Source: an uncultured Bacteroidales bacterium
GTDB taxonomy: Bacteria; Bacteroidota; Bacteroidia; Bacteroidales; Bacteroidaceae
DNA: 64,000 nt
Reading direction: 5' to 3'
NCBI GenBank assembly: GCA_902798615.1
Contig: CADBXL010000003.1
Span: 1-64,000, forward strand
This document shows, one piece after another, positions 19,473 to 55,094 of this stretch; the first letter of the stretch is position 1; every line of letters starts with the position of its first letter. The notes under the pieces were generated by a model that worked only from the letters and a program-made list of their open reading frames with translations, had not been told where the DNA came from and ran no database searches. The translations under genes and the position numbers were made by a program.

Positions 19473-19590
19473 TCCGTTCTCAGTCCGTTGATAGTCCGAT
19501 ATTCCTCCGTTGATAATACCATTATAATACCATTATATTACCATAATAATACCATTATAATACCATAAACTATTGTATTATTATGGTATT
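19473..19590. repeat. 11-bp periodic array (array 2)
   Basis: Nine units in exact register: TCCG at 19473, 19484, 19495 and 19506, then TACC at 19517, 19528, 19539, 19550 and 19561. The right flank carries the reverse motif (TTATGGTATT at 19581-19590). It lies between the divergent rnpB promoter and the 19746 gene promoter. Confidence 0.8.
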
Positions 19591-19695
19591 TGTATTGTGA
19601 TTTATATGTTTTTTAATCGGATTTACTTACTTGTCAGATAGGAATACCATTAAAGGCATGAGCTTATATCATCCTTGATTTTCTTGCGTATATTC

Positions 19696-19726
19696 TTTGT
19701 TATATTGAAAATTTTGTCTATCTTTG
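19696..19726 (+). promoter_or_regulatory. Promoter of the 19746 gene
   Basis: TTTG (19696-19699), 19 bp, TATCTTTG (19719-19726). Confidence 0.65.
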
Positions 19727-19745
19727 CCCTCAAAAATCAGACGTT

Positions 19746-20186
19746 ATGAAACATATAATATTTCTCATTTGTGCTCTCTTTGCCTGCACTTTCACCTCAA
19801 AGGCGCAGGTTAGGGTTTCTACTCGTGATTTGAATGGGACGAAGTGGCAATGTTTAAGTTCAATTTACGAATATAAAAATGGGAAAGAAATATGGCATCG
19901 CAAAGATGGTAGCTCTTTTACCTATCAGTATTATTTGTCTGACAAAATGCCCGAGGCATTTGATTTCTCAAAAGTAGGGAGAAGCACACAAGGAAGATAC
20001 CTTATAGTATATAATCCCAAATTAGACTCTTTCTTCACCTATGCCATTCTACGCTTTAACAAAAAGGAAAAGATAATGACCCTAAGACTGGATACAAAAA
20101 ACGTAATTGGAAATTCAGGCCCAGCTAGTTTTACATTAATATCTGACACTTCCCATCCTAAAAGGCAAAGAAATTCTAATAATTAA
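19746..20186 (+). CDS. Small secreted protein of unknown function
   Basis: The 146-residue protein has a clear signal peptide (KHIIFLICALFACTFTSKAQ). The mature part begins with LNGTKWQCLSS and has a predicted beta-rich, lipocalin-like strand pattern (SSFTYQYYLS, FTYAILRFNKKEKIMTLRL), but I cannot assign a family. It has its own promoter and a good downstream terminator, so it is a single-gene unit. Confidence 0.65.
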   Translation: MKHIIFLICALFACTFTSKAQVRVSTRDLNGTKWQCLSSIYEYKNGKEIWHRKDGSSFTYQYYLSDKMPEAFDFSKVGRSTQGRYLIVYNPKLDSFFTYAILRFNKKEKIMTLRLDTKNVIGNSGPASFTLISDTSHPKRQRNSNN

Positions 20187-20234
20187 ACAGGTATCTATAT
20201 ATGTGATAGAAGACTTCAGATAGTAATATGATAA

Positions 20235-20275
20235 AATCTCACACCTCTAAACAAATAAGTGGTGTGGGATTTTTC
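20235..20275 (+). terminator. Rho-independent terminator after the 19746 gene
   Basis: aatctcacacc (20235-20245) pairs with ggtgtgggatt (20261-20271), followed by TTTTC. Confidence 0.7.
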
Positions 20276-20341
20276 TATTATGGTCGCATAGAGGGGAAGT
20301 TTGTTCTTTCCTCACAACTTATTCCTCTTTAGGTTCGCTCT

Positions 20342-20452
20342 TCCTCCTATAATCCTCCTATGTTCCTCCTAACCAAACTCGATGAAGCTCTTATTCTGTA
20401 TAAGAGAAAGAGCGGAGGTTCATCGAGTTTGGTTCCTTGTATCAACGGAGGC
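20342..20452. repeat. 11-bp periodic dyad array (array 3)
   Basis: TTCCTCCT-type units at 11-bp steps (20343, 20354, 20365) lead into an inverted repeat whose arms (aaccaaactcgatgaa, 20371-20386; ttcatcgagtttggtt, 20419-20434) match the arms of array 1 with one change, then GG units to 20451. It lies upstream of the map promoter. Confidence 0.7.
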
Positions 20453-20497
20453 AGATACTTCTTGCTTGGGACAAAAACAAATATTTCCTGTGATTTA

Positions 20498-20529
20498 TTT
20501 GCAAGTGTGCGGAAAATGAATTAATTTTG
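20498..20529 (+). promoter_or_regulatory. map promoter
   Basis: TTTG (20498-20501), 20 bp, TAATTTTG (20522-20529). Confidence 0.7.
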
Positions 20530-20589
20530 CACTCAAATTTAAAAAAGTGCTTCAAACTTTATGGTTGAATTGCACAGAAAACGAATAAA

Positions 20590-21447
20590 ATGGTAAAGAA
20601 AAAACGTTGGCATTGTCTTCCCGGTCAGCCTCTCACCGAGATGGATAAGCAGGTGATGTACTGGGAGAGCAAAGGCAAACTTGTGCCTACTCGCGAGCTG
20701 ATTCTCAACGACGAGCAGATAGAAGGCATACGTCGTGCTGGTGTGGTTAATACTGGCGTGCTGGATGAAGTGGCAAAACAGATTCATGCAGGAATGAACA
20801 CTCAGGAGATTGATGATATCTGCATGCAATATTGCAAGGATCATAACGCTACTCCTGCCTGCCTCAACTATGAGGGATTCCCTAAGTCTGTATGCACAAG
20901 TATCAATGAGGTGGTATGTCACGGTATTCCGAAGGAAGAGGATGTTCTTGAGGAAGGTGATATTATAAATGTGGATTTCACCACTATCCTTGACGGCTAT
21001 TATGCAGATGCCTCTCGTATGTTCATCATAGGCAAGACAACTCCTGAGAAAGAACAGCTTGTGCGTGTTGCCAAGGAGTGCCTTGAGATTGGTATGGAGG
21101 CTGCAAAGCCTTACGGTTTCGTAGGTGATATTGGTCATGCCATCAAGAAACATTGCAAGAAATACGGCTATGGTATCGTGACAGACCTTTGCGGTCATGG
21201 TGTAGGCCTGAAATTCCATGAGGAGCCGGAGGTAATGCATACTGGCTATCGCGGAACTGGCATGCTTCTTGTTCCTGGTATGGTGTTCACCATTGAGCCT
21301 ATGATCAACATGAAATCGCCAAAGGTATTTATTGATGCTGACGACGAATATGGTTGGGAGGTTATCACGGAGGATGAGCTTCCTTCAGCACAATGGGAGC
21401 ACACGCTTCTTATGACTGAGCATGGAGTGGAAGTGCTGACGTATTAA
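20590..21447 (+). CDS. map: Methionine aminopeptidase, type I
   Basis: The 285-residue enzyme removes the initiator methionine from new proteins. The five metal ligands are visible in order: Asp in INVDFTT, Asp in YADASRMF, His in GHGVGLKFHE, Glu in TIEPM and Glu in WEHTLL. About 40 extra N-terminal residues (KKKRWHCLPGQPLTEMDKQV) precede the catalytic domain, longer than the E. coli enzyme. It has its own promoter. Confidence 0.94.
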   Translation: MVKKKRWHCLPGQPLTEMDKQVMYWESKGKLVPTRELILNDEQIEGIRRAGVVNTGVLDEVAKQIHAGMNTQEIDDICMQYCKDHNATPACLNYEGFPKSVCTSINEVVCHGIPKEEDVLEEGDIINVDFTTILDGYYADASRMFIIGKTTPEKEQLVRVAKECLEIGMEAAKPYGFVGDIGHAIKKHCKKYGYGIVTDLCGHGVGLKFHEEPEVMHTGYRGTGMLLVPGMVFTIEPMINMKSPKVFIDADDEYGWEVITEDELPSAQWEHTLLMTEHGVEVLTY

Positions 21448-21459
21448 AACGCGACCAGC

Positions 21460-21500
21460 GGCCTCTCCCCCCGCCCTCCCCCGTAGGGAGGGAGCCGGAA
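21460..21500. repeat. Left 41-bp family A repeat flanking the DUF559 gene
   Basis: Starts ggcctctccccccgccctcc. It is the exact reverse complement of 21941-21981, giving a perfect 41-bp inverted pair around the DUF559 gene. Confidence 0.85.
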
Positions 21501-21529
21501 GGCGAAGGTGGGATGCTAAAACAAGTTAT

Positions 21530-21898
21530 ATGAAGAACTGTTATAAGACAACATCGCCTGATAGATATCGCAATTTGGCTGATAAAGCAAAAGGGATGCG
21601 AACAAAGCCGACAGAAGCAGAAAAGTTGCTTTGGGAGTATTTGCGTGCTAATAGACTTGGGGCTAAGTTTAGAAGACAGCATCCTTTGGGCGATTATATT
21701 GCGGACTTTGTTTGTCTTGAAAAACGACTGGTCATAGAACTTGATGGAAAATGTCATGAACAAGACAGAGAACATGACGAGTTAAGAGATAATTTGTTGT
21801 TGAAACTTGGATATAGAACAGTTCGTTTCACAAATGAGGAATTGTTTGGCGAAATAGAATGTGTTCTTACAAAAATAAGGAATTGTCTTAATGGATAA
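21530..21898 (+). CDS. DUF559 endonuclease-fold protein
   Basis: The 122-residue protein carries the DUF559 motifs: MRTKPTEAEKLLWEYLR, FRRQHPLGDYIADFVCLEKR and LVIELDGKCH, plus a final YRTVRFTNEE. The fold is related to very-short-patch-repair and restriction endonucleases; GDYIADFV and IELDGKCHE would supply the D...ExD/K catalytic residues. The function of this family is not established. Its last eight bases overlap the start codon of tsaD, and perfect inverted copies of a dispersed palindrome flank it, so it looks like a small inserted cassette. Confidence 0.8.
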   Translation: MKNCYKTTSPDRYRNLADKAKGMRTKPTEAEKLLWEYLRANRLGAKFRRQHPLGDYIADFVCLEKRLVIELDGKCHEQDREHDELRDNLLLKLGYRTVRFTNEELFGEIECVLTKIRNCLNG

Positions 21899-23030
21899 AG
21901 AAAAATTACATACTGATAATATAGCGGAATGCCGTGCGACTTCCGGCTCCCTCCCTACGGGGGAGGGCGGGGGGAGAGGCCGAAACCTTATCCTTGCAAT
22001 AGAATCCTCTTGCGACGACACTTCGGCTGCTGTAATGGACGGAAGAGTCTTGTTGTCCAATGTTACCGCTTCACAGAAAGTACATGAGGCTTATGGCGGA
22101 GTTGTGCCAGAGTTGGCTTCAAGAGCACATCAGCAGAATGTGGTACCTGTAGTTGATCAGGCACTAAAACAGGCTGGTGTGAAGAAAGAAGAACTGTCGG
22201 CTGTTGCCTTTACTCGTGGTCCCGGACTTATGGGCTCGCTTCTTGTAGGCGTTAGCTTTGCCAAGGGATTCGCGCGTTCACTCGGCATACCTATGATTGA
22301 TGTCAACCACCTTCAAGGACACGTAATGGCTCATTTCATTCAAGAAAGAGTGGAGGATGAGACAGCCGAGGGCGGATATAAAATAGTGGATAACGCCCCA
22401 CCCTTCCCTTTCCTCTGCCTGTTGGTATCTGGAGGTAACTCGCAGATTGTCAAGGTGAATGCCTATAATGACATGGAGGTTCTCGGACAGACAATCGACG
22501 ATGCTGCCGGTGAGGCTATTGACAAGTGTTCAAAGGTGATGGGCTTGGGATATCCTGGTGGTCCTATCATTGACAGACTTGCCCGTCAGGGAAATCCGAA
22601 GGCTTATCAGTTTGCTGAGCCACACATCCCAGGACTTGACTATTCATTCTCTGGCTTGAAGACATCCTTCCTCTATTCACTTCAGAAATGGGTGAAGGAA
22701 GATCCTGATTTCGTGGAGCATCACAAGGAAGATATTGCAGCTTCTTTGGAATGGACGGTTGTTGATATCCTGATGAAGAAACTCCGTTTGGCCGTAAAGC
22801 AAACAGGCATCAAACATGTGGCCGTAGCAGGTGGTGTTTCAGCAAACAACGGTCTTAGAAATGCTTTCCACGACCATGCAAAGCGTTATGGCTGGACAAT
22901 CTACATTCCTAAGTTCTCATATACGACAGATAATGCCGCTATGATTGGCGTGGTTGGTTCTTATAAGTTGAAAGACAAGGACTTCTGCGGTATTGAGGTA
23001 CCGGCATTCTCAAAAGTAACATTTGAATAA
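21891..23030 (+). CDS. tsaD: tRNA N6-adenosine threonylcarbamoyltransferase TsaD
   Basis: TsaD transfers threonylcarbamoyl to A37 of ANN-decoding tRNAs. The protein shows ILAIESSCDDTSAAV, the metal-binding NHLQGHVMAHF, LLVSGGNSQIV and AVAGGVSANNGLR. It has 379 residues, about 30 more than usual, because the family start (normally just before ILAIESSCDD) is preceded by residues read through a palindromic repeat ([15 protein letters not shown]). No in-frame start lies between the repeat and the conserved core, so the repeat-encoded leader is probably translated. The start codon overlaps the DUF559 stop. Confidence 0.92.
   Translation: MDKEKLHTDNIAECRATSGSLPTGEGGGRGRNLILAIESSCDDTSAAVMDGRVLLSNVTASQKVHEAYGGVVPELASRAHQQNVVPVVDQALKQAGVKKEELSAVAFTRGPGLMGSLLVGVSFAKGFARSLGIPMIDVNHLQGHVMAHFIQERVEDETAEGGYKIVDNAPPFPFLCLLVSGGNSQIVKVNAYNDMEVLGQTIDDAAGEAIDKCSKVMGLGYPGGPIIDRLARQGNPKAYQFAEPHIPGLDYSFSGLKTSFLYSLQKWVKEDPDFVEHHKEDIAASLEWTVVDILMKKLRLAVKQTGIKHVAVAGGVSANNGLRNAFHDHAKRYGWTIYIPKFSYTTDNAAMIGVVGSYKLKDKDFCGIEVPAFSKVTFE
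21941..21981. repeat. Right 41-bp family A repeat, translated at the TsaD N-terminus
   Basis: Exact reverse complement of 21460-21500; read in frame as a Gly/Arg-rich linker of TsaD. Confidence 0.85.
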
Positions 23031-23042
23031 GAAAAGGTAATT

Positions 23043-23576
23043 ATGCAATTCGAAAATAAAGTATTAAGCAAAGAGATATTGTTCATCCTCTACGAGTCTG
23101 GCAAGACACTCTCTACTGCCGAGAGCTGCACATCAGGTAAGGTAGCAGAATCCATAACTCTCATGCCTGGTGCAAGCGCATACTTCACAGGAGGCATAGT
23201 GGCATACAGCGAGGAGGTGAAGAAGAGTCTGCTCAACGTTCCGGAAGAACTTATCGAGGAGAAAACTGTTGTCAGTGAAGAAGTTGCAATAAGGATGGCA
23301 GAGGGAGCCTGCGAGGTGCTTAATACCGACTATGCCATAGCAACAACAGGCGTTGCAGGTCCTGGCGGAGGAACGATAGAGAATCCAGTCGGTACAATAT
23401 GGATTGCCGCAGGTAAGAAAGGCGAGATGCGAACAGTAAAACTCACGGAGGATGATGGCCGAGACATAAATGTAACCCGCGCCACATTCCGCGCACTTCA
23501 ACTATTGCTTGAAGTTCTGAAAGAAGACTTCCCTCAACCCGATTTAAGCGAAGTACCTGTTCCTGAGGCAAAATAA
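23043..23576 (+). CDS. pncC: CinA C-terminal domain protein, nicotinamide-nucleotide amidase
   Basis: The 177-residue protein is the stand-alone CinA C-terminal (PncC) domain: LSTAESCTSGKVAESIT, YFTGGIVAYS and ATTGVAGPGGGT are diagnostic. Family members deamidate NMN to nicotinic acid mononucleotide in pyridine-nucleotide salvage. It starts 12 bp after tsaD and is likely co-transcribed. The last 15 residues are Pro/Glu-rich and not conserved. Confidence 0.88.
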   Translation: MQFENKVLSKEILFILYESGKTLSTAESCTSGKVAESITLMPGASAYFTGGIVAYSEEVKKSLLNVPEELIEEKTVVSEEVAIRMAEGACEVLNTDYAIATTGVAGPGGGTIENPVGTIWIAAGKKGEMRTVKLTEDDGRDINVTRATFRALQLLLEVLKEDFPQPDLSEVPVPEAK

Positions 23577-23666
23577 CTTTTCCGACAGTTTTTCCCTCTA
23601 TAGAGAATAAAGCAGCAAGAATATCTGTTAAAAAGTATTAAAATCAAACTTAAGGATAAAAGATAT

Positions 23667-23697
23667 TTTGTAGAATGGGAAAAAATGTGTAATTTTG
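23667..23697 (+). promoter_or_regulatory. Promoter of the rpmB-rpmG operon
   Basis: TTTG (23667-23670), 19 bp, TAATTTTG (23690-23697). Confidence 0.75.
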
Positions 23698-23749
23698 CAC
23701 GCTGTTTGGAATAAGTATCAATTAACGATTGTAAAAAACAAAGATAGCA

Positions 23750-24013
23750 ATGTCTAAAATTTGTCAGATTACAGGTAAGAAGGCTCAGATGGGAAACAAC
23801 GTTTCTCACTCTAAGCATCGCACAAAGCGCAGCTTCGATGTAAACCTGTTTAGCAAGAAGTTCTTCTATGTAGAGGAGAACTGCTGGATTAGCCTTAAGA
23901 TTTCTGCCGCTGGTCTTCGCATGATTAATAAGGTAGGTCTTGATGCAGCTCTGAAGCAGGCTGTAGCTAAAGGCTATCTTGATTGGAAGGATGTTAAAGT
24001 AATAGGAGAATAA
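23750..24013 (+). CDS. rpmB: 50S ribosomal protein L28
   Basis: The 87-residue protein has the L28 pattern ([39 protein letters not shown]). It is first in a three-gene run with 5-bp and 22-bp gaps. Confidence 0.95.
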
Positions 24014-24018
24014 TCAAC

Positions 24019-24207
24019 ATGGCAAAGAAAGCAAAAGGAAATCGCGTGCAGGTAATCCTTGAGTGCACCGAGCACAAGAATAGTGGTATGCCAGGCACAA
24101 GCCGTTATATCACAACAAAGAATCGTAAAAATACTCCTGAGCGTCTTGAGTTGATGAAGTACAATCCTATCCTCAAGAAGATGACTCTTCACAAGGAGAT
24201 CAAGTAA
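24019..24207 (+). CDS. rpmG: 50S ribosomal protein L33
   Basis: The 62-residue protein begins [19 protein letters not shown] and contains [17 protein letters not shown], both typical of L33. A single Cys remains, so the zinc-free form is likely. Confidence 0.95.
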
Positions 24208-24229
24208 TCATATAGATTTATAAGAAACT

Positions 24230-24385
24230 ATGGCAAAGAAAACCGTCGCATCCCTTCAGACTGGTAAGACTGATGGTCGTGCATACACAAAGGTAATCAA
24301 GATGGTTAAGAGCCCTAAGACTGGTGCTTACATTTTCGATGAGCAGATGGTTCCAAACGAGGCTGTTAAGTCATTCTTCAAGTAA
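24230..24385 (+). CDS. DUF4295 family small protein
   Basis: A 51-residue Lys-rich protein starting MAKKTVASLQTGK and ending AVKSFFK. Its place directly after rpmB-rpmG is conserved in Bacteroidetes, where it is listed as DUF4295. A ribosome-associated role is inferred only from this position. Confidence 0.85.
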   Translation: MAKKTVASLQTGKTDGRAYTKVIKMVKSPKTGAYIFDEQMVPNEAVKSFFK

Positions 24386-24411
24386 ATTTGAATTAAACTT
24401 ATAACAATATG

Positions 24412-24458
24412 AAAGAGACTGCATTCAGGCGATAAATGTTTGATTGTAGTCTCTTTTT
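24412..24458 (+). terminator. Terminator/attenuator between DUF4295 and the response regulator
   Basis: aaagagact (24412-24420) pairs with agtctcttt (24448-24456), and the stem can extend by three more pairs; it ends in a run of T. The next start codon is only 12 bp away, so it may also gate the regulator. Confidence 0.6.
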
Positions 24459-24470
24459 GGATAAACTGAT

Positions 24471-25196
24471 ATGGAGAATTTTAAAGTCATTATAGTAGAG
24501 GACGTGCCTCTTGAGCTCAAGGGCACCGAAGGACTGCTTCGCAATGAGGTTCCCGAAGCAGAGGTAATTGGTACTGCAAGCGATGAGACGCAGTTTATCC
24601 AACTCATGCGTTCCGGCAACCCTGACCTAATTCTCCTTGACCTCGGCCTAGGCGGTTCTACCACTATCGGTGTGGAGATCTGCCGAAGTGTGAAGGTTGA
24701 GCACCCTGAGGTGAAGGTGCTTATCTTTACGGGAGAGATATTGAATGAGAAATTGTGGGTTGACGCACTTGATGCAGGTGCAGACGGCATAATCCTAAAA
24801 ACAGGAGAGATGCTAACCCGAGCAGATGTCATAAGCGTGATGTCTGGAAGAAAATACGTATTCAACCAGCCTATCATGGATGCTATCGTAGGATCATTCC
24901 GCAAGAACGTAATGTCAACCGTACTTCGTCAGGAAGCATCCATAGGATATGAAATTGACGAGTATGACGAGAGATTTCTCCGCCATCTTGCTCTTGGTTA
25001 CACAAAAGACCAGATTGCTGGTCTCAGAGGCATGCCTTTCGGTGTCAAGAGCCTTGAGAAGCGCCAGATGGAACTCACCCAGAAGCTATTCCCAGGCGGA
25101 AATGGCAAGCAGAGCGTGAACGCAGTCCGCCTTGTCACGCGCGCGTTCCAGTTGCATATTCTTGATCCGGAGAATTTGTTTGCAGACGAAGAATAA
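24471..25196 (+). CDS. Response regulator, NarL-like receiver with C-terminal HTH-like domain
   Basis: The 241-residue protein has a receiver domain (residues 1-125) with acidic Glu10/Asp11, phospho-acceptor Asp57 in LILLDLGLG, Thr87 and Lys110. Residues 155-235 (DERFLRHLALGYTKDQIAGL, VNAVRLVTRAFQL) resemble a LuxR-type helix-turn-helix but are diverged. No sensor kinase is adjacent. The weak HTH makes the exact subclass uncertain. Confidence 0.78.
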   Translation: MENFKVIIVEDVPLELKGTEGLLRNEVPEAEVIGTASDETQFIQLMRSGNPDLILLDLGLGGSTTIGVEICRSVKVEHPEVKVLIFTGEILNEKLWVDALDAGADGIILKTGEMLTRADVISVMSGRKYVFNQPIMDAIVGSFRKNVMSTVLRQEASIGYEIDEYDERFLRHLALGYTKDQIAGLRGMPFGVKSLEKRQMELTQKLFPGGNGKQSVNAVRLVTRAFQLHILDPENLFADEE

Positions 25197-25247
25197 TTGA
25201 CGAAAGTAAAATTTAACGTCTCAGAAATGCAAATAGTTTGCTGAATA

Positions 25248-25279
25248 TTTGTTTTTCTCGAAAAATAGGAGTAATTTTG
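25248..25279 (+). promoter_or_regulatory. Promoter of the export-protein gene
   Basis: TTTG (25248-25251), 20 bp, TAATTTTG (25272-25279). Confidence 0.7.
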
Positions 25280-25321
25280 CAGAAAATTTTGCTTAATTGC
25301 ATATTTATTGTAACATAAACT

Positions 25322-26086
25322 ATGAAATTTAATATCAAGAGCTGTCTCAGCATAATGGCCGTATTTCAGAATGCAGAACAAGTAAGCCTTTCTGCTTCTC
25401 GTGGTATTCACGATGCTCGTATTATGCCAAAGGATGTCCTTACCATCAGCGTAACGACACCAGACAGAGAAATTTCCTCTCAGTTCAACCAACTTGTATA
25501 TAACACAATGCAGTCAGGTGGTAGCAGAGCGATCAGTTCTGGTTCAGGTACCATGATGCCTTACACAGTTGGTGCTGACGGAAACATCAATTTCCCTATC
25601 ATTGGAAAGATTAACGTTCAAGGGCTTACTCGTCGCCAGTGCGAAGATAAGATTGCTGGTCTTGTAAAGCCATATCTCTCAAACGACATTAATCCTGTTG
25701 TCGTCGTTGAGTTCCAGTCATACACCATTACCGTACTTGGTGAAGTGGCTCGTCCTGGAGCATACAATGTTAATTCTGAGAAATACAGCGTTCTTCAGGC
25801 TCTTGGTGCCGCAGGCGATATGACAATCTATGGTATACGTGATAATGTCCTGCTTATCAGAGAAAATGCCAATGGCGAGAAATCAACTCATCGTCTAGAT
25901 TTGAATGATGCAAACGTGATTAATTCACCATATTATTATTTGCAGCAGAATGATGTCGTCTATGTACAACCGAACAAGACAAAAGCAAGGAACTCTGATG
26001 TTGGTCAAAGTACATCGCTTTGGTTCTCTGCAACAAGTATTGTGATTTCATTGGCATCTCTGATGTATAACATCTTGAAAAAATAG
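25322..26086 (+). CDS. Wza-like polysaccharide export protein with shortened N-terminus
   Basis: The 254-residue protein has the Poly_export domain (RIMPKDVLTISV, GADGNINFPIIGKI, GLTRRQCEDKIAGLV) followed by an SLBB motif (ITVLGEVARPGAYNV) and a C-terminal hydrophobic segment (SATSIVISLASLMYNIL). Such proteins form the outer-membrane channel for capsule or exopolysaccharide. The expected lipoprotein signal is missing: residues 1-17 (KFNIKSCLSIMAVFQNAEQ) keep the post-Cys FQNAEQ-like stretch but lack the hydrophobic segment before the Cys. No Wzc or glycosyltransferase genes are adjacent. Confidence 0.8.
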   Translation: MKFNIKSCLSIMAVFQNAEQVSLSASRGIHDARIMPKDVLTISVTTPDREISSQFNQLVYNTMQSGGSRAISSGSGTMMPYTVGADGNINFPIIGKINVQGLTRRQCEDKIAGLVKPYLSNDINPVVVVEFQSYTITVLGEVARPGAYNVNSEKYSVLQALGAAGDMTIYGIRDNVLLIRENANGEKSTHRLDLNDANVINSPYYYLQQNDVVYVQPNKTKARNSDVGQSTSLWFSATSIVISLASLMYNILKK

Positions 26087-26098
26087 GAAATAAGAAAT

Positions 26099-26145: not shown

Positions 26146-26186
26146 CTAAAATAGAAACACGAACAGAAAAAAACAAATAAAGATTT

Positions 26187-36468: not shown

Positions 36469-36578
36469 TCAATAATAATTACGAATTACAAATTACGAAT
36501 TATCAGTTTAGTCTGCAAACGCAAATAAGGCAAACAAGGTAATTCGTAACTCGTAATTCGTAATTTTTTTGTGAAATG

Positions 36579-37874: not shown

Positions 37875-38156
37875 ACCAGCTATAAGATTGAGTTCTATGG
37901 TAACCCGAGTTCGAGAAACTAAAAGGGAAGCGGATTTATCCGATTTATCTGAATAATTTACTGAATATAATTTATTGATGATTTACTTTCAGTCAAAGGG
38001 CGCAAACCATCCTTTCAGATACATCAGATACATCCGTTTCTTTTTTATTGACCACAGATAGCAGGGATCTCACAGATGTTAATCACGAGCGCATGCGAGC
38101 CTATCCGTTTAATCCGTGCAATCTGTGTTCGAAAAAGACAAAATGAGATACGCTGA

Positions 38157-38693
38157 CACTAAAATCCTTATTGTTACCTGTTACTTGTTACCGATGGGCC
38201 ATGTCTGTCGCTCTGCCTTCGTTCTGCCCTCGTTCTGCCTTCGCTATGCCTCCGCTTCAGGTTCGCTCCCATCGATGGAGTATCAACGGACTTACAACGG
38301 ACTTATAACGGAGGTAGAACGGAACTGCATCGGATGGGGTACCAGAGCTTTTTCGCGTCTTTACATCGTTTTCTATGCAGAGTAAACGAATTCAGTATGA
38401 TGTCAACGAAATCAGGATTGTGTAAACCTTTCCAGGAAAACGACAACCTTTCAAGCGTGACGTCAACGAATGCAGTATAAGAATAACTAAAAACTGTAAA
38501 CCAAAATCAGGAAAAGACAAAGATAATCTGCCCAGAATTAATGCCTATTATTATGTTATTGAGACTATCTGCCGCCCACACCTCGCCCTCCGATTTGCGT
38601 TAACAGCCTCATTATCTTTACCTTAGGCAGCTACAATAAGCAAGCAAAACCACGACCAGTAACAAGTAACAGGTAACAATAAGGATTTTAGTG
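38157..38693. repeat. Perfect 35-bp inverted repeat enclosing 467 bp
   Basis: Left arm begins cactaaaatccttattgtta at 38157; the right arm, 38659-38693, is its exact reverse complement. No coding sequence lies between. Confidence 0.8.
38214..38338. repeat. 11-bp periodic dyad array (array 4)
   Basis: TGCC at 38214, 38225, 38236 and 38247, then CAGG at 38258 and CCAT at 38269, then GG at 38277, 38288, 38299, 38310, 38321 and 38332: each half is in strict 11-bp steps with CC to GG inversion at the centre (ccatcgatgg). Confidence 0.85.
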
Positions 38694-39003
38694 CATGCCA
38701 AAATTTTACTAAATATTTCTAAGGAGTTTATATACCTTATTATATATATAAATAATAAATATGGGCATAAGTTTACACTATTTTTCTTATTGTTACCCGT
38801 TACCTGTTACTGACACGTTTTCAGGAATTATTTTGACACACAACAGATTCTATTAGGGGCAAACTCATAGTCAGCCGTAATTCTCTCTCATGATTTTGAA
38901 AGCATTTTTCATTTTAATTCAAATTATATTATTGATATCCTACAAGTTACATTATTTTGTGAAAAGAAAACTATTTTCAAACTTTAAAATTCAAGCCTAA
39001 TAT

Positions 39004-41594: not shown

Positions 41595-41737
41595 GCCAGG
41601 ATTTATTCTCGCGCCAGATACAAATCTATCTACAATTACAAATTACAATAATTACAATAAAATATGGGCATACATACCATAGGCTATGTCCGTTTTTATT
41701 GCAATTATTGTAATTGTAATCCCCCCCCAATGTACCT

Positions 41738-41823
41738 CCCATGTAAGTCCGTAGTAAATCCCTTGTAAATCCCATTTTCGTCCATTCTATGAAACGGACT
41801 TGGAAGCGAAGGTAGAAATTCGG
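41738..41823. repeat. 11-bp periodic array (array 5)
   Basis: CC at 41738, 41749, 41760, 41771 and 41782 in exact 11-bp steps, then GG at 41796, 41802, 41811 and 41822, less regular. The rest of 41595-41996 is AT-rich, with aattacaataatt-type repeats at 41630-41720. Confidence 0.7.
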
Positions 41824-47134: not shown

Positions 47135-48355
47135 ATGCAAAAGGAAAAACTTTGGAACAAGAACTACAACAAGGTGATGCTTACAAACTTCACCCTGTTC
47201 TTCTCGTTCTATCTTATAACTCCACTCCTGCCTCTCTATCTTAGCGAGACATTCTCAGCCTCAAAGGACACTATCGGACTTGTCCTTTCTGGCTACACTC
47301 TCGTTGCCCTTGTCATACGACTATTCAGCGGTTATATGGTAGATAACTTTGCACGCAAGACTGTTCTCCTCGTGGTTCTCTTCGTGTATTTCATATTCTT
47401 TGGAAGCTATCTCATAGCCGGAAGCCTTCTTGCTTTCGCCTTATTCAGAACACTTCACGGAGGTCCTTTCGGGGCTACAACCGTAGCAAACTCCACAATG
47501 GCTATTGATGTTCTTCCTGCCTCTCGACGAAATGAGGGCATAGGTTTCTATGGAATGAGCAACAACCTCGCATCTGCCATAGCTCCTACCGTAGGACTTT
47601 TCATCTATACTCACACACACGATTTTCAACTTATGTTCTGGCTTGCCTTCATTATTGCTGGTATAGGTTTTGTGAACACCTACACGCTTGATGTAAAGAA
47701 CGAGAAGCCAAAGGACAGGATGAAATTCAAATTCTCTCTCGACCGTTTCTTCCTCGTGCGAGGATGGTTTCTTGCCGTAAACATCTGTTTCTTCGGTTTC
47801 TGCTGGGGAGTGTTGAGCAACTACCTTGCTATATATGGCAAGGAGCATCTCGGAATAACAAGTGGTACTGGAACATATTTTCTCCTTCTCTCCATAGGTC
47901 TTATCGTATCTCGTCTTATCGGTAACAAGGCTCTTCGTCAGGGAAAACTCACGCATAATGCTATGGAAGGTATTGTGCTTTCCACTTTCGGCTTTGGAAT
48001 CTTCATAGCAGGTCCTTACATCCTCGGACTTTTCTCTTGCGACCCGGACTTGAACTTCATCCCATACTATGCCTCTGCCATTCTCATAGGCTTTGGCAAC
48101 GGTCACATGTGGCCAGCTTTCCAGAACATGATTATTGCCATAGCGCATCATAATGAAAGAGGTACTGCCAACAGCACAATCCTTACCTCATGGGATTTCG
48201 GTTTAGGCCTTGGCATTCTCCTCGGAGGTGTAATAGCCGAGTATCTGGGTTATGATGCTATGTTCTGGGTAATGGCAGGAATCCACGTTATAGGACTTGC
48301 GATGTATATCTTTACCACACAAAGCAAATTTGAAAAATTGACAATTAACAATTAA
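47135..48355 (+). CDS. Major facilitator superfamily transporter
   Basis: The 406-residue protein has 12 predicted membrane segments and MFS loop motifs (RLFSGYMVDNFARKTVLL, RTLHGGPFGATTVANS, PASRRNEGIGFYG). It most resembles the drug-efflux/arabinose-efflux branch; the substrate is unknown. The final residues (KLTINN) are encoded by an AATTAACAATTAAT-type repeat that crosses the stop codon. Confidence 0.85.
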   Translation: MQKEKLWNKNYNKVMLTNFTLFFSFYLITPLLPLYLSETFSASKDTIGLVLSGYTLVALVIRLFSGYMVDNFARKTVLLVVLFVYFIFFGSYLIAGSLLAFALFRTLHGGPFGATTVANSTMAIDVLPASRRNEGIGFYGMSNNLASAIAPTVGLFIYTHTHDFQLMFWLAFIIAGIGFVNTYTLDVKNEKPKDRMKFKFSLDRFFLVRGWFLAVNICFFGFCWGVLSNYLAIYGKEHLGITSGTGTYFLLLSIGLIVSRLIGNKALRQGKLTHNAMEGIVLSTFGFGIFIAGPYILGLFSCDPDLNFIPYYASAILIGFGNGHMWPAFQNMIIAIAHHNERGTANSTILTSWDFGLGLGILLGGVIAEYLGYDAMFWVMAGIHVIGLAMYIFTTQSKFEKLTINN

Positions 48356-48485
48356 TAATTAACAATTAACACGGAAGTGTATTGGCGTCACATTCCATAC
48401 GGAAGGTTTGCACGGACAGGCATGTTAATTTTTCGCTGAAGCTCAACAAGCTAAAGCAAGTGTTAATTATTAATTGTTAATTGTC
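48340..48485. repeat. aattaacaatt repeats joining the MFS and helicase 3' ends
   Basis: acaattaacaattaataatt (48341-48372) and its inverse near 48465-48482 form the tails of both convergent genes. Between them lies aagctcaacaagctaaagca (48437-48458), related to 52450-52475. Confidence 0.55.
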
Positions 48486-50772
48486 TTACCGCCATACAGC
48501 ATTTCACTATTCCATATCCATATTCATCTCTTCCCAAGGCATCGACAATATCCTTGGCTGTTGCTGAAGGATTGGCTTCAAGACATTTGTTTACTGCATC
48601 TATCTTCTTCTGCTCAAAGAGATGATTCAAAGGGAGTTTTCCGTTTAATACCGAAGGCAGCAGATAGCTATAAACAGTACTTTCTACAACGCCCATCTCC
48701 TTTGCAATATCCTCCACGAGTTTGCCGTCAAGGTACATCGCAAGAGCCTTTTCTTGCTTCATATCCATCGTCACCTTTGGCTTCTTAGCGGCCTCTCCCC
48801 CCGCCCTCCCCCGTAGGGAGGGAGCAGAGTTACCCTCTGACTTTTTACTCTTTCTACTTTCCCCTTTACCCTTTTCTACATCCTCATCAAGTGAAAGTGA
48901 AATCTTTGCCTTTGCCTGAAGGAAAGGCTGAAGTTTCAATCCGTTGTGAGCCACATAATGTAGTAGCTGTATCTTGAACTTTACAAGGTCGTTAAAGTTC
49001 TGGGTAAGGTTATCCACACGCTCTTTGACAGCCTTATTGTTAGTTTCAAGGGCTGTCTTTGTAAGAAGTCTAAAGGTATCGCATAACTGTTGCTCGAAAT
49101 AATCAGCACCTTTTTTCAATCGTTCCTGAAGCAACTCAGAATTCTGATAGTCAACCTCCGTGAGAACGATATTCTGATACTGGTTATGGAACTTCACAGC
49201 CACATCATCCACCTTCTGTTTGAACGTTTCTGAAGACTCTACCCAAGCATTATATTGCTTGTTCGCAGACGAATAGAAATGCTCTCGCATAAGGCGAACC
49301 ATATCACCATAGCCAAACTTTATCTGCGCAAAGGAGAACAAATCCTCGATTGTCCTAAGCAGATAATGCCTCTGCATCTGGTCAAGTTTCTGCTCATCAG
49401 GCGACTTATGCCTTGGATCTTCCTGAAACGTCTCAACCGTCTTGTCATTTATGATAGCATATTGAGGAATGGGAGCAGCAAGAACCATTCCCTCCAAAGA
49501 CTTGCAACGGGATAGAGCCACGTATGTCTGTCCGTGCGCAAAACTATGCTGAACATCTATAATAGCGTGCTCGAAGGTGAGACCTTGAGACTTATGTACG
49601 GTTATTGCCCAAGCCGTTTTCAAAGGGTATTGGGTAAAGGTGCCGACAACGGTCTCGTGTATCTCTTTCGTCTTCTCGTCAAGCTCATATTTCATGTTCT
49701 GCCACTCCTCAGGAGTAACATCTATAACCTCTGATTGACCAGAAGGGCGCACTTGTATGTGGTCGTCATCAATATCGACAATCTCACCAATCATACCGTT
49801 ATAATACTTCTTATCTGCTGATGAATCGTTCTTTATGAACATCACCTGAGCTCCAAGTTTCAAGGTAAGAGTCTTATCCGTAGGGAATGAGAGTTCCGGG
49901 AAATCCTTCCAGATAGTTGCATCATAATGATAGGCAGGAGTTGGAAGAGCATCAAGTTCCTTCTGATTGATATTATCAGCCTGAGCATTGTGGGTTACAA
50001 GTCGGATATAGCCTTCCTGTTTCGGGGGATTGAAGTCTGCAACAAACCTCTGGTTAAGAGCTTGCAAGTCAGAAGCATCGGCGGTATTTGTACGAACCTT
50101 ATTAAGAAGACTGACAAACAACGGATCACTCTGACGATACACATGCTGAAGCTCTACGGTAACGAAATCCGTCTGTTGAAGTGCCTTGCTTGAGAAGAAA
50201 TATGGAGTATCATAATAAGGACGGAGCATAGCCCATTCATCCTCACGAGCCACAGGAGCAAGCTGTTGCATATCGCCAATCATAAGCATCTGCACCCCAC
50301 CAAAGGCACGATTCCTATCGCGATACTGCCTCAACACAGAGTCTATGGCATCAAGCAAATCAGCCCTTACCATCGAAATCTCGTCAATAACAATAAGGTC
50401 AACGGTACGGATAAGCCTCAGCTTCGACCTACGAAAGGCATAACGCTTGCTATTGCCATATTGAGTTCCGGGAATCTGAGGACCGAAGGGCAACTGAAAG
50501 AAAGAATGTATCGTAACTCCCTCTGCATTAATAGCGGCAATACCCGTAGGAGCCACAACAATCATACGCTTAGGCACTTTCCTGCGCAGTTCTCGAAGGA
50601 AAGTGGTCTTACCCGTTCCTGCCTTTCCCGTCAGGAACAAGTGCGTATCAGTATTAGCTATGATATTCCAAGCTAAATCAAGCTCGGGATTGAGGCGGCC
50701 CCCCTCCCCGCTCCCCCGAGGGGGAGTGCCGGAAGGCGAAAGAGCCGTTATATCATTTTTGAAATCAGTCAT
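48463..50772 (-). CDS. PIF1/RecD-like superfamily 1 helicase with C-terminal HTH
   Basis: The 769-residue protein has Walker A LTGKAGTGKTTFLRE, Walker B VIDEISM, motif GDMQQLAPV and VHKSQGLTF, as in PIF1-like 5'-3' DNA helicases. The C-terminal third holds a helical region and a winged/HTH domain (LVEDIAKEMGVVESTVYSYL) of the type found on RecQ-like proteins. Two repeats are read in frame: near the N-terminus (SPSGTPPRGSGEGG, residues 12-25) and in the linker before the HTH ([14 protein letters not shown]). The C-terminus LTINN comes from an intergenic repeat. Role in replication or repair is inferred from the family. Confidence 0.87.
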   Translation of the reverse strand: MTDFKNDITALSPSGTPPRGSGEGGRLNPELDLAWNIIANTDTHLFLTGKAGTGKTTFLRELRRKVPKRMIVVAPTGIAAINAEGVTIHSFFQLPFGPQIPGTQYGNSKRYAFRRSKLRLIRTVDLIVIDEISMVRADLLDAIDSVLRQYRDRNRAFGGVQMLMIGDMQQLAPVAREDEWAMLRPYYDTPYFFSSKALQQTDFVTVELQHVYRQSDPLFVSLLNKVRTNTADASDLQALNQRFVADFNPPKQEGYIRLVTHNAQADNINQKELDALPTPAYHYDATIWKDFPELSFPTDKTLTLKLGAQVMFIKNDSSADKKYYNGMIGEIVDIDDDHIQVRPSGQSEVIDVTPEEWQNMKYELDEKTKEIHETVVGTFTQYPLKTAWAITVHKSQGLTFEHAIIDVQHSFAHGQTYVALSRCKSLEGMVLAAPIPQYAIINDKTVETFQEDPRHKSPDEQKLDQMQRHYLLRTIEDLFSFAQIKFGYGDMVRLMREHFYSSANKQYNAWVESSETFKQKVDDVAVKFHNQYQNIVLTEVDYQNSELLQERLKKGADYFEQQLCDTFRLLTKTALETNNKAVKERVDNLTQNFNDLVKFKIQLLHYVAHNGLKLQPFLQAKAKISLSLDEDVEKGKGESRKSKKSEGNSAPSLRGRAGGEAAKKPKVTMDMKQEKALAMYLDGKLVEDIAKEMGVVESTVYSYLLPSVLNGKLPLNHLFEQKKIDAVNKCLEANPSATAKDIVDALGRDEYGYGIVKCCMAVRQLTINN
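48790..48825. repeat. Family A repeat (shortened) in frame in the helicase gene
   Basis: ggcctctccccccgccctcc and onward to gggagggagc; the ccggaa end is missing. Encodes a Gly/Arg-rich linker. Confidence 0.75.
50697..50735. repeat. Family A variant in frame at the helicase N-terminus
   Basis: cggcccccctccccgctccc and onward to ggagtgccggaagg; encodes residues before the conserved core LNPELDLAW. Confidence 0.65.
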
Positions 50773-50806
50773 TTTTCACTTTTCATTTTCCTCATTTTTA
50801 GGTTCT

Positions 50807-50845
50807 CCGGCTCCCTCCCTACGGGGGAGGGCGGGGGGAGAGGCC
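50807..50845. repeat. Family A repeat between the DUF3078 gene and the helicase
   Basis: Copy ccggctccctccctacgggg and onward to gagaggcc, ending 5 bp before the DUF3078 stop codon. Confidence 0.8.
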
Positions 50846-50850
50846 GCCTT

Positions 50851-52092
50851 TTACATCGAATACGAGAATCCGAGCGACAGATACTCCTTGATCTGCCAAT
50901 AGCTGTGGTTCTCCATCTTCTGAACGCCATCGTCAAAGCGAGGATAGAGGAACAACTGAGCAGAGATATATCTGCTGAAGGCGAAAGTGAAGGTATTCTC
51001 CCACTCTATCACAGCCCTTGAATATGTGGTATAGGCATATAGACGAGTTCCCCACTTGAACTTATCCGTAGGTTTCCACGTTATGTTGGCTGTAAACTGC
51101 GAACCCCAGTCATTCATACCATGATGCCCTTCGGGAAGACCATAGCGTGTGGCAAGAGCCAGACGAGACACATGCTTGAAGTTATGGGCTAAAGGAGCTA
51201 TGTGAAGCGAGCCCGTAAGTCGTTTGTTGTATGCCTCGATGTTATAATCCATACCGACAGAGAAGTTCAACTCAAAAGGTGAGAAGAAATCTGAATATAC
51301 GTTAGGATCATTACTCTTATAGCCTCTTACAAACTGGGATGTGGCAAGAATCTGGAAGGTATAGTACCATTTCTTCGTTGCCTGCAAGCCAAGCTTACCG
51401 GTATAACGCAGAAGGTCGGAGGTTGTCTTCAGCTTATGAATGGTATCTGAAGGCGAATTCTGAATACCCACCTTCATCTCAAGCATATTTTCCCACTTTA
51501 TCTTCTGCTGATTATTGTAGTTGTATCGCAGGATAACATTTGCCACAGCCGAGAGGTTGTCGTCACCACTCTTATACCAGTTTCTTGAGAAATGGCTCTG
51601 CATGAACTGAAGGTTATAGTCGCCCGAGAACTTCCAGAAATTAGGCTTGAATATCTCAAGACTTACAGGAGAATCTGCCACGAGTGCCGGCTCATTCTCG
51701 AATGACTCCTCACGGGCAACCTCCACCTTTCTCTGAACAGGAACCGTTGGAGCCGACTCAGCAGCAGAAGCCACCTTATGCAACTTACAAGCCGTTGTCT
51801 CTATAAGCTCCGGATGCTTCAGATAGTTCTGCATCAGAATATTATTTATGATACTATCCGAAGAGTTCTTCTCCATCACGCTCTTCACCACGTCAGGATA
51901 AAAGGTCATGGGAGAAAACAGACGGAAGAACTGCCCATTCACATTGCTGCTCCTGAGAGAATCAAGCGAACGCTGCAAGGAGTCAATACGAGCCTTGCAG
52001 ATGGAAAGGGAGTCCATATAATGTTGTAACTGTGCATTGGCTGAGAATGTTATGAACAATGTCATCACAATGCAAACAAGTTTCTTAGTCAT
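50851..52092 (-). CDS. DUF3078 domain outer-membrane protein
   Basis: The 413-residue protein has a signal peptide (TKKLVCIVMTLFITFSANA), a short coiled region (SICKARIDSLQRSLDSLRSS), and a beta-barrel-like C-terminal domain of alternating aromatic strands (WKFSGDYNLQFMQSHFSRNW, NWYKSGDDNLSA) ending in Met after LSLGFSYS. These are features of DUF3078, a Bacteroidetes outer-membrane family of unknown function. It is 78 bp upstream of the helicase and probably co-transcribed with it. Confidence 0.82.
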   Translation of the reverse strand: MTKKLVCIVMTLFITFSANAQLQHYMDSLSICKARIDSLQRSLDSLRSSNVNGQFFRLFSPMTFYPDVVKSVMEKNSSDSIINNILMQNYLKHPELIETTACKLHKVASAAESAPTVPVQRKVEVAREESFENEPALVADSPVSLEIFKPNFWKFSGDYNLQFMQSHFSRNWYKSGDDNLSAVANVILRYNYNNQQKIKWENMLEMKVGIQNSPSDTIHKLKTTSDLLRYTGKLGLQATKKWYYTFQILATSQFVRGYKSNDPNVYSDFFSPFELNFSVGMDYNIEAYNKRLTGSLHIAPLAHNFKHVSRLALATRYGLPEGHHGMNDWGSQFTANITWKPTDKFKWGTRLYAYTTYSRAVIEWENTFTFAFSRYISAQLFLYPRFDDGVQKMENHSYWQIKEYLSLGFSYSM

Positions 52093-52123
52093 ATTATATA
52101 CCTGTATGTGTGGAAATTAGCTG

Positions 52124-52155
52124 CAAAGTTACAAAAAGAATCCGCAATATGCAAA
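52124..52155 (-). promoter_or_regulatory. DUF3078 gene promoter
   Basis: Minus strand: TTTG (52155-52152), 20 bp, TAACTTTG (52131-52124). Confidence 0.75.
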
Positions 52156-52790
52156 TGTTTGGCGTTTTTTTTCAACATGAATCCTCATTCCCTACCATAA
52201 CCATCACTAACAATTCGTTTTTTTTCTATTACTGTCCGATAAACCTCTGTAACTTACCTTCCATCAAGAAATTGAATCTTGGTAAGCCTATGAATAATAC
52301 AAAAACAATAAAAACCCCTTAATGTCTATGCGTATTTCTTTTTTCTGGTAAGCCATTAGGCTTCCCGAAAAAACAAATCCACATATCAGGCCTACGGCAA
52401 GACATTAAGGTAAAAAACAGGAAAAAGCCGCATGTTAATTGTTAATTATTCGCAAGCTCATCAAGCTAAAGCAAGTGTTAATTGATTAGCTTTTTTATGT
52501 TTTTTCATTTATGTTCCGACCCTCGCAGAGGGGAATGATACCCCTTTCTGTCCTGCGGACATCTTTCCCCTTAAAGGGGCAAGAAGCTGCCGCCGTTTGG
52601 ACATTCTCGTTAGGCCTTTCTGCGCTAGCCTTTCCTGCCCCTTCACGGGGAAGGATGCCTGCAAGGCAGGAAGGGGTCTTTACTAAAAGGCTTTCAGACA
52701 AGCAATACATTATGAAGGCTGAAAGCCTTTTAGAACATAAATGTTTTTTCTGGTTTTTGTTTTTATCGGACAGCAATATTTTTTTTCTTC
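52156..52790. repeat. Repeat-filled spacer, including a family B inverted pair
   Basis: 52430-52490 carries cgcaagctcatcaagctaaa with flanking gttaatt. 52540-52593 and 52622-52677 are inverted family B copies (acccctttctgtcctgcgga; ggaaggatgcctgcaaggca). An open frame crosses this region on each strand, but both consist of repeat sequence. Confidence 0.6.
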
Positions 52791-52799
52791 GTAGATACT

Positions 52800-52880
52800 C
52801 CATCGCTACTCCATCGTTACTCCATCGCAAGTCCATCGTTTCGATGGAGTATCGATGGACAATCGATGGATTATCGATGG
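52800..52880. repeat. 11-bp periodic dyad array (array 6)
   Basis: CCATCG at 52800, 52811, 52822 and 52833, then CGATGG at 52842, 52853, 52864 and 52875: four against four units, all in 11-bp steps. It lies upstream of paralog 4. Confidence 0.9.
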
Positions 52881-52998
52881 ATTATCTTATGAGGAACAAG
52901 GGACTTTCATAGGATTATCAACAAAGGGAAAATGCTTAAGAATACCAACAATTTTATTGAAATTTGAAAAAAATGTCGAGTTTTTAAATCTTTTTTCT

Positions 52999-53006
52999 TA
53001 ATTTTG
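52999..53006 (+). promoter_or_regulatory. Candidate -7 box of TlpA-like paralog 4
   Basis: TAATTTTG, 48 bp before the start codon; no clear TTTG at -33. Confidence 0.45.
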
Positions 53007-53054
53007 CGCCATTAATAGTAAAGACAAGTGTAAAAAACAAAATTTATTCATTCT

Positions 53055-54704
53055 ATGAAACTAAATATAATATCATTATTGTTATTGCTCATAGCTACTT
53101 GCTCTTGGGGACAAGTTAAGAACACATCATCCTCTGATGAAAAGCAGAGAATCCCCATTAAGCCTATTGTCGTTGAAGGCGAAGTTTCTGGTGTTCCTGA
53201 CGGAGCCCTTGTATTCTTTAGTTACAATATTAATAAATCCTATGCCTATTCGGCCGCTAATGGTATTTTGGCAGATACTGTAAGGAATGGGAAATTCCAT
53301 ATAGAAAAGAGATTTATATATAAGGATCTAGAAGATAGTGAAGACAATGAAAAGTATTCGCTTGTACTTAACGGAGGTAATTTATTTGTATATGCATATC
53401 CTGGTTCAACGGTGAAGGTGACAGGCACACCTGACCCTGAGTTTTTGAACTGGAGGGCGGAGAGTGATCATCCTTTACAAAAAGAATTGAATGAATATAT
53501 AGATCACAGACGTAAGAATGTAGCAAATGTCAAGAAAAAGATACAAGAAGCATACGAGGCAGATGATGTTCACGATGATTTGGTAGAAAAACTGAACAGG
53601 GAAAAAGATTCTATCCATGTGGTGGCTATGCTCGACTTTATGAAGAACAGGGAATGTGATGATGTTTTTGCTGATGAGGTTTGCAGAATTTCCAATATCG
53701 CTTTTTTCCTTAAGAACGAGGAGCTAAGTGGTAAAATACGCGATTTCATTAAAGAGAAAGTTCCTGCTGAATATAATGATAATCAGGCTATTATTCTGTC
53801 AAAACGATATCTTGCTCCATCAAGTGGGTATCTGCATGTTGGTGACAAAATGATGGACTTCACGTTTTATGACCGTGATGACAAGGTACACAAACTTTCA
53901 GAGTTCGTAGGAAAGAAACCTGTAGTATTACAATTTTCTACTAAAGGCTGTGGTGCATGTCATGCCATAAGGCCAGAGATTGAAGAGTTCTACGCGAAAC
54001 ACAAGGATGAGGTTGAGGTCATTACCATTTCTATGGATAATGAAAAGGCATGGAAAAGTGATGAGAAAGTAAGTTGGCAAGATTGGAATGATCATGCTTC
54101 CGGCTCAACCATAGGAGCAAAATTCCCTTTACAGGGATACCCTTACTATGTGATTATAAGTGCTGACGGGACAATCTCCTCAACCTTCCTCGGCAATGGG
54201 GAATTACTTAATTATTTCAAGACATTCAAGAATCCTCAGACACAACAACCCTCAACAGGCAATCAAGCGCAACTTTATAGCCCGACAAAAGATTTCACTC
54301 TTCATGACCGTAAAGGTAAGGAGCATAAACTATCTGATTTTAAGGGGAAATACATAGTGCTTATGTTTACCTATGAAGGCTGTGAGCCTTGTCTTGAGGC
54401 GATGCCCATCCTTGACGGATTCTACAAGCGCAACAAAGACAAAGTTGAAGTGATTGCCATTTCTGGAGTTTCAAAGGAAGACTGGTTGGCACAAAAAAGT
54501 ACAGTAAGTTTTCATGAATGGAATGAACGTGCAAGTGACATAGGACTTTATTACGGATTAGATACTAGCTTTGTGATCATACATCCGAATGGTAACATTC
54601 TTCATATGTCGCGAGCTCGTTTAGGGTCTTTTTTCAAGGAATTAATTGAGCATGTGCCTGATGAGGAAATAAAGAATTTGCTAAAGCAAAAAAGCAGGAA
54701 ATAG
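53055..54704 (+). CDS. Secreted TlpA-like protein with two thioredoxin domains, paralog 4
   Basis: The 549-residue protein has an N-terminal export signal (KLNIISLLLLLIATCSWGQ), a DUF4369-like domain, and a first thioredoxin domain with CGAC (STKGCGACHAIRP), close to paralogs 5-7. An extra C-terminal thioredoxin domain has CEPC (YEGCEPCLEAMP), followed by LDGFYKRNKDKVEVIAIS; that second domain is closest to paralogs 1-3. It therefore looks like a fusion of the two subfamilies. The final domain lacks a normal cis-Pro (DTSFVIIHPNG). Confidence 0.85.
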   Translation: MKLNIISLLLLLIATCSWGQVKNTSSSDEKQRIPIKPIVVEGEVSGVPDGALVFFSYNINKSYAYSAANGILADTVRNGKFHIEKRFIYKDLEDSEDNEKYSLVLNGGNLFVYAYPGSTVKVTGTPDPEFLNWRAESDHPLQKELNEYIDHRRKNVANVKKKIQEAYEADDVHDDLVEKLNREKDSIHVVAMLDFMKNRECDDVFADEVCRISNIAFFLKNEELSGKIRDFIKEKVPAEYNDNQAIILSKRYLAPSSGYLHVGDKMMDFTFYDRDDKVHKLSEFVGKKPVVLQFSTKGCGACHAIRPEIEEFYAKHKDEVEVITISMDNEKAWKSDEKVSWQDWNDHASGSTIGAKFPLQGYPYYVIISADGTISSTFLGNGELLNYFKTFKNPQTQQPSTGNQAQLYSPTKDFTLHDRKGKEHKLSDFKGKYIVLMFTYEGCEPCLEAMPILDGFYKRNKDKVEVIAISGVSKEDWLAQKSTVSFHEWNERASDIGLYYGLDTSFVIIHPNGNILHMSRARLGSFFKELIEHVPDEEIKNLLKQKSRK

Positions 54705-55094
54705 TAATCCCAAGTACAAAAACCAAGATTTTATTCATTCTATGAATCGGAATATTTGAGTTTCCTTGATAAGGAAACGGCGTAAGCAAAGGTTATTCAC
54801 CCCCAAATCGCATTTTCTTAGTAGATACTCCATCGCTACTCCATCGTTACTCCATCGCAAGTCCATCGTTTCGATGGAGTATCGATGGATTATCGATGGA
54901 TTACTGATGGATTATCTTAGGAGGAAGAGCGTAGAAACAAAGGTGTGTCAGCATTGAAAATTACCAGAAAAAAGCAGACAGGGGAAACGCAAAAAAGGAG
55001 GAAATAAAGAAAAAGTAGTCTTCTTAAATCTTTTTTTACACTTTTGCGTCTTTATCATTAAAAGCATTAGTACAAAACTAAAATTAAGACAAAC
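54705..55094. repeat. 11-bp periodic dyad array (array 7) in the paralog 4/5 spacer
   Basis: CCATCG at 54830, 54841, 54852 and 54863; CGATGG at 54872, 54883 and 54894; TGATGG at 54905. About 100 bp (54821-54920) are nearly identical to array 6. The rest of the spacer is AT-rich, with a weak promoter-like ACACTTTTG near 55040. Confidence 0.85.

Follow-up and report, generated by a model that had tools for sequence, protein, structure and literature searches.

An 11-bp register in intergenic arrays of a Bacteroidaceae clade and candidate explanations for it

The first 64,000 nucleotides of contig CADBXL010000003.1 (assembly GCA_902798615.1; this whole stretch is hereafter called the window), from an uncultured Bacteroidales bacterium of the Bacteroidaceae, carry seven intergenic arrays in which C-rich markers recur every 11 bp and, in most, flip to the complementary G-rich marker. 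What keeps such a step, and would it be read in DNA or in a transcript? An initial annotation suggested that their transcripts could form long RNA stems. We confirm the intergenic arrays with their 11-bp step and CC-to-GG flip, all seven of which are in place when the sequence is written in rows of eleven, and we tentatively read them as rows of docking sites for a putative DNA-binding protein rather than as RNA stems.

The 11-bp step and the build of the arrays

A search of the window with eight CC/GG trinucleotides, for runs of at least four at steps of 5 to 30, returned ten runs at step 11 and two at step 6; every other step gave none. Self-similarity was scored over 456,649 bases of the same genome, or about 13% of the assembly: the window together with parts of three further contigs, which were picked from a list of TCC-pattern matches and so do not form a random sample. 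Lag 11 stood out at 33 intergenic and no genic places, and lag 7, the only other strong basic lag, at 19 intergenic and two genic places; multiples of 7 and 11 were raised too, and the remaining lags gave 0–3 intergenic places. Genes were called with a simple purpose-written script, which is poor on short pieces such as the set of 74 Prevotellaceae loci described below. Thirty of the 33 lag-11 windows overlap TCC-type elements, the other three being two (CATAAGAGCWR)n arrays and one AT-rich place. An independent program, Tandem Repeats Finder (TRF), reported 97 intergenic arrays at period 11; the neighbouring periods 10 and 12 had 13 and 20, and period 7 had 74. An 11-mer profile found 65 arms in the real DNA and one in a single Markov shuffle of it. 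The initial annotation had named an intergenic excess of lag-11 autocorrelation and recurrence in close relatives as the marks by which its claim should be judged, and both are present.

Applied to the own genome (G000) and to two close relatives, the profile found 44 elements in 456,649 bases of G000, 72 in 797,000 bases of G180 and 34 in 389,196 bases of G185, densities that do not represent a sample because the stretches were mostly picked from contigs with matches. Both arms are present in 98 of these 150 elements and a single arm in 52. In every two-armed element the TCC arm comes first and the GGA arm second; one TGT and one TGTG element have an extra arm, and no element consists of GGA then TCC alone. 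The 11-bp unit has two parts, a core of about six bases that usually starts with TCC and about five bases of freer spacer. The earlier suggestion that spacing is kept while the marker differs from array to array holds for the unit sequences; the marker itself is not free because within the clade it is mostly TCC/GGA, with CTC, GTC, TTC, ACC and GCC as variants at the same phase as TCC.

Simple string rules divide the elements into four classes, which recur with the same architecture at dispersed sites. Class I units are TCCATCG plus four freer bases, about four per arm, with the arms joined at TTT. Class II has the core ACCAAACTCGATGAA and its variants, and class III is marked by ATAATACCATT. 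Class IV holds the rest (48 of the 98 two-armed elements), mostly TCCGTTGTAAG with TCC-CAA/CTT/TAT/CAT-G units in varied order. The offset between arms, taken modulo 11, has preferred values: it is 3 at all 27 class I junctions and at 17 of 20 in class II, 3–5 at 36 of 49 in class IV, and 2, 2 and 3 in class III, although these are not independent events because copies within a class are related.

Docking sites, repeats or RNA stems

If the arrays are docking sites, the 11-bp units would act as half-sites, bound at one per turn of the helix on a single face of the DNA, and arms facing each other would form rows for one putative DNA-binding protein. A protein as reader, DNA rather than RNA as the molecule read, and cooperative binding would all belong to such a mechanism. 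Comparison of G000 with G180 bears on it. Flanks could be matched in G180 stretches for 23 of the 44 own elements, at intervals of up to 2.3 kb in some cases; 19 intervals hold an element and four hold none above threshold, one of these absences being uncertain because the interval contains masked bases and what looks, on reading by eye, like a class II stretch. Across the aligned elements, core positions 1–6 differ at 50 of 720 sites, spacer positions 7–11 at 87 of 556 and other intergenic DNA at 3703 of 30,354; with elements defined in G180 the figures are 34/633, 65/506 and 4075/31,428. A one-unit slip would raise the spacer count spuriously, so gap-free arms were examined alone. Ten such arms gave 6/276 differences in the core, 14/230 in the spacer and 84/1028 in the flanks, and nine arms from elements defined in G180 gave 5/270, 16/225 and 74/917, respectively (core versus flank, p about 1e-4; core versus spacer, p = 0.037 and 0.006). 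The core thus changes slowly in pooled sites. By class, this holds for class IV, whose positions 4–6 change little (3/129 and 8/148), and partly for class I. Single-arm arrays count for docking, since they have no pairing partner and still show no core change (0/60 in two elements and 0/84 in three). Indel lengths also favour the unit: 11 bp is the commonest length among 20 array indels between G000 and G180 (six, with 13 of 1–7 bp and one of 21), while it accounts for 6 of 457 indels in other intergenic DNA.

Whether letters or base pairs are kept was addressed with a swapped-arm control, in which each arm is paired with its own partner and with arms of other elements; a stem predicts better pairing with the own arm. 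Element centres were chosen to maximise pairing, which favours a stem, and the percentages are given without a significance test. At class I spacer positions 8–11 (27 elements), own and other pairing are 33/34, 63/68, 43/47 and 40/47 percent, and at class IV positions 4–6 (48 elements) they are 35/36, 46/49 and 79/82 percent. Class IV is therefore unmatched at positions 4–5 yet slow-changing at 4–6. Because these positions and the single-arm cores change little despite no gain in pairing, letters appear to be kept more than pairs, except perhaps in the class II core.

Several observations weigh against docking. The core conservation is drawn from few elements and rests on pooled sites because the outcome arm by arm is mixed: the core is slower in five of the ten gap-free arms, faster in two and equal in three, and in the other direction these counts are four, three and two. 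Class II positions 4–6 are not conserved (16/104 and 6/57), and class I positions 1–3 are only mildly so (12/122 and 8/111). Fourteen of the 20 array indels are not 11 bp long. Own-arm pairing is in excess at class I positions 5–7 (82/74, 78/63 and 73/65 percent) and at most positions of class II (20 elements; for example 66/46 at position 9, 57/46 at 7 and 79/70 at 6). No reader protein was found, a search of 14 genomes for the ribbon-helix-helix (RHH) family RHH_1 (PF01402) being empty and other RHH families not searched. Finally, a family of hundreds of copies in one clade, with no gene context preferred, would suit a selfish repeat equally well.

Such a repeat is a serious possibility: a selfish or neutral palindromic intergenic family whose units change by slippage and which has no host job, kin in kind to repetitive extragenic palindromic (REP) sequences, enterobacterial repetitive intergenic consensus (ERIC) sequences and miniature inverted-repeat transposable elements (MITEs). 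We rank it slightly below docking, and both can hold together. The dispersed classes of shared architecture and the 11-bp indels suit it, as does the spread among genomes. Four TCC at step 11 match 399 times in the 3,455,388-base assembly, against 30 for the reversed pattern, where one array can yield several matches. Six close relatives, metagenome-assembled genomes with an M24 peptidase 97–99% identical, have 333, 283, 281, 166, 222 and 314 matches (reversed controls, 15–36), and 14 other genomes counted alongside have 0–16. In a draw of 120 other genomes of the family the count is 0–18, save for three built of other units (G023, 130; G049, 71; G102, 27; reversed controls 221, 109 and 10). 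A stricter pattern, TCCGTT twice followed by TCC at step 11, matches 204 times in the own genome (reversed control, 0) and twice in all across 59 other genomes of the genus. Counts in 40 genomes drawn from the class are 0–3 except for the own genome. The arrays are intergenic interspersed repeats with hundreds of pattern matches in one clade. Their presence also varies between relatives: the array before the M24 peptidase gene is in place in three, absent in two and replaced by a class I array in one.

Placement points the same way. Only two of the 150 elements lie mostly inside called genes, so that the elements are multi-copy and intergenic, as MITEs are. Of the 141 elements with both neighbouring genes called, 30 lie between convergent genes (59.1 kb, 0.51 per kb), 25 between divergent genes (63.1 kb, 0.40 per kb) and 86 between genes of the same direction (214.5 kb, 0.40 per kb); placement roughly tracks intergenic length, not gene starts. 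With no preferred gene arrangement among the 141, a promoter role was dropped, and so was a terminator role, since a simple consensus scan placed none of 15 and 28 terminator-like sites (43 together) in the seven arrays.

Against a purely selfish family stand the slower core in pooled counts, the fixed arm order and the preferred offset. No fixed ends, target-site duplications or clean empty site were seen, three G180 intervals scored as element-free having been aligned; similarity between copies stops near the array edges, and unit number varies. REP and BIME (bacterial interspersed mosaic element) sequences and ERIC are short imperfect palindromes found between genes in many copies; the arrays add to this an internal 11-bp register, a conserved core and a freer spacer. 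The REP-type transposase Y1_Tnp does not follow them, numbering 2, 1, 0, 2, 2, 1 and 3 in seven array-bearing genomes and 1, 2, 1, 1, 0, 1 and 3 in seven others. Arrays lie near three of the eight Y1_Tnp loci of the clade that were looked at, about what overall density predicts, so neither numbers nor neighbourhood support an origin by REP-associated tyrosine transposases (RAYTs). A phage or plasmid origin was likewise set aside for the one class I array tried, which has no similar sequence among 72,556 plasmid or 50,697 phage records. Only one contig of a viral collection carries the class I triple unit (L277:13489–13517), ending 45 bases from the contig end.

Among the open-access papers returned by our searches, no title or abstract opening described such arrays in Prevotella; the nearest relative in kind is BrickBuilt, a MITE of Porphyromonas gingivalis. 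BrickBuilt has 19 copies, a 23-nt unit, and a leader and tail with IS5-like terminal inverted repeats (PMC4596501). Both are intergenic, multi-copy elements of Bacteroidales made of tandem units with predicted long stem-loops; the arrays differ in having 11-bp units, opposed arms and pattern matches in the hundreds, and neither leader nor tail was seen in them.

The model of the initial annotation, in which transcripts of the arrays form long stems and a protein binds the like pairs on one face, now seems quite unlikely, because own-arm pairing mostly brings no gain and placement goes by intergenic length. Some evidence remains on its side: the pairing excess in class II and at class I positions 5–7, a double change at the M24 array of one relative (L053) that keeps the class II core palindrome, and folds more stable than shuffles (median z of −2.5 for 29 own two-armed elements), a stability that follows from the arms being opposed. 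Palindromic candidate RNAs are also reported from Bacteroidetes; one survey lists 250, of which 230 are predicted terminators and some are confined to Bacteroidetes (PMC8040213). The match of 11 bp to one turn of an A-form RNA helix fits, and it equally fits negatively supercoiled bacterial DNA, to whose pitch a period of about 11 bp is commonly related, according to one account (PMC4132750). The periodicity treated there has the same period but is a statistical bias of AT motifs, whereas the arrays are discrete, with CC/GG cores and opposed arms. For most elements a stem as the main constraint is not borne out by the swapped-arm control, more than a third of the elements have no second arm to pair with, and there is no placement rule by gene strand. 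At gathering score, Rfam gave one match in the window, RNase P, and none in the arrays.

Centromere-like iterons read by an RHH protein are very improbable. The repeats read by ParR are 11 bp long and the heptads read by omega 7 bp, and 11 and 7 are the two unit lengths that stand out here, with sites likewise set in head-to-tail rows; those iterons, however, are plasmid centromeres in few copies, the plasmid and phage records hold no match to the class I array, and the empty RHH_1 search, which was positive in 8 of 14 control genomes, led us to reject an RHH_1 reader.

The seven arrays of the window

Bounds of the window arrays (Table 1) were set by the trained 11-mer profile, which sees both arms in five of the seven.

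Table 1. Arrays of the window with an 11-bp step
Class	Position	Strand	Description
II	1078-1226	none	TCC arm 1078-1165, GGA arm 1161-1226 (profile scan); between convergent genes (gene calls)
III	19462-19560	none	TCC units, then ATAATACCATT units; one passing arm by profile
II	20312-20471	none	upstream of M24 peptidase gene 20590-21447 (profile, Pfam)
IV	38204-38334	none	TGCC-type left arm 38204-38258, weak (score 11.3); GGA arm 38269-38334; one unit less than in relative G180
IV	41726-41791	none	one passing TCC arm by profile
I	52788-52925	none	TCC arm 52788-52842, GGA arm 52838-52925, joined at TTT; unit TCCATCG plus four free bases
I	54818-54944	none	TCC arm 54818-54872, GGA arm 54868-54944; close copy of 52788

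By open reading frames, a plus-strand gene lies to the right of six of the seven, as the initial annotation had noted; this does not extend to a genome-wide rule. BLAST matches to dispersed copies in the own genome have about the same extent as the arrays, as at 1083-1222, 20327-20455 and 52784-52908. Exceptions are the duplicated neighbouring genes and the array at 38204, which lies amid further repeats. The class III array also has similar copies elsewhere in the genome, and the RNase P RNA gene (18966-19395, minus strand; Rfam) adjoins it. Several paralogous thioredoxin/AhpC-TSA-like genes stand in a row at 36654-58903, and this row includes a duplicated stretch that carries both class I arrays. 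Five of the six close relatives have many matches to segments of 38141-38850 and G185 has a few, and 38157-38191 is the exact reverse complement of 38659-38693. Intergenic arrays of another class step by 7 bp, for example at 36477-36565, 41634-41660 and 48336-48371.

Register across the family

Beyond the clade the step reappears mainly in its double. At 74 loci of other Prevotellaceae from an M24 scan, intergenic and genic places number 18/1 at lag 22, 10/6 at lag 7, 6/0 at lag 8 and 2/0 at lag 11. In 344,837 bases from 20 genomes of the family, nine intergenic places were found at lag 22, four each at lags 33 and 44, two at lag 11, three at lag 7 and at most two at any other, where one array may count at several lags. 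At low threshold, TRF gave 16 arrays of period 22 in the 20-genome set, but also 18 of period 15, 12 of period 11 and 10 of period 21, so the 11-bp quantisation is clearest for strong arrays. A small control from outside the family (127,210 bases; 77,210 plus 50,000) contains 7-bp places, one place at lag 22 and none at lag 11.

The sequences involved are unrelated even within one genome, as L094 shows with three 22-bp arrays that differ from one another. Small palindromes are present in many 22-bp units, and those of L109 differ on both sides at once. Further 11-bp units occur in P. communis, where strain E15-14 has 11-bp TCCTAGGCTGC arrays, and in G023, whose stretches were picked by matches. 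In other Prevotellaceae (L068, L073, L074, L094, L095, L109 and others), the M24 peptidase gene has 22-bp arrays of unrelated sequence upstream or downstream of it.

These arrays raise the possibility, which we consider unlikely, of a general helical-pitch architecture in intergenic DNA of Prevotella and the Bacteroidaceae. Unrelated arrays, in some genomes more than one, would be quantised at 11, 22, 33 and 44 bp and read along one face of negatively supercoiled DNA by one or more fast-evolving nucleoid proteins, with register counting before letters; the present clade would be the case in which one code expanded to hundreds of copies.

Should the docking reading hold, the arrays would point to a protein that organises the chromosome or acts as a regulator in an abundant group of gut and rumen bacteria, with a binding code that could be read in the sequence itself. 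A selfish nature would instead make them a repeat family whose helical register persists as its letters vary, with a bearing on the survival and growth of palindromes in bacteria. In both cases a cause is needed for steps of 11 and 22 bp among sequences that are unrelated.

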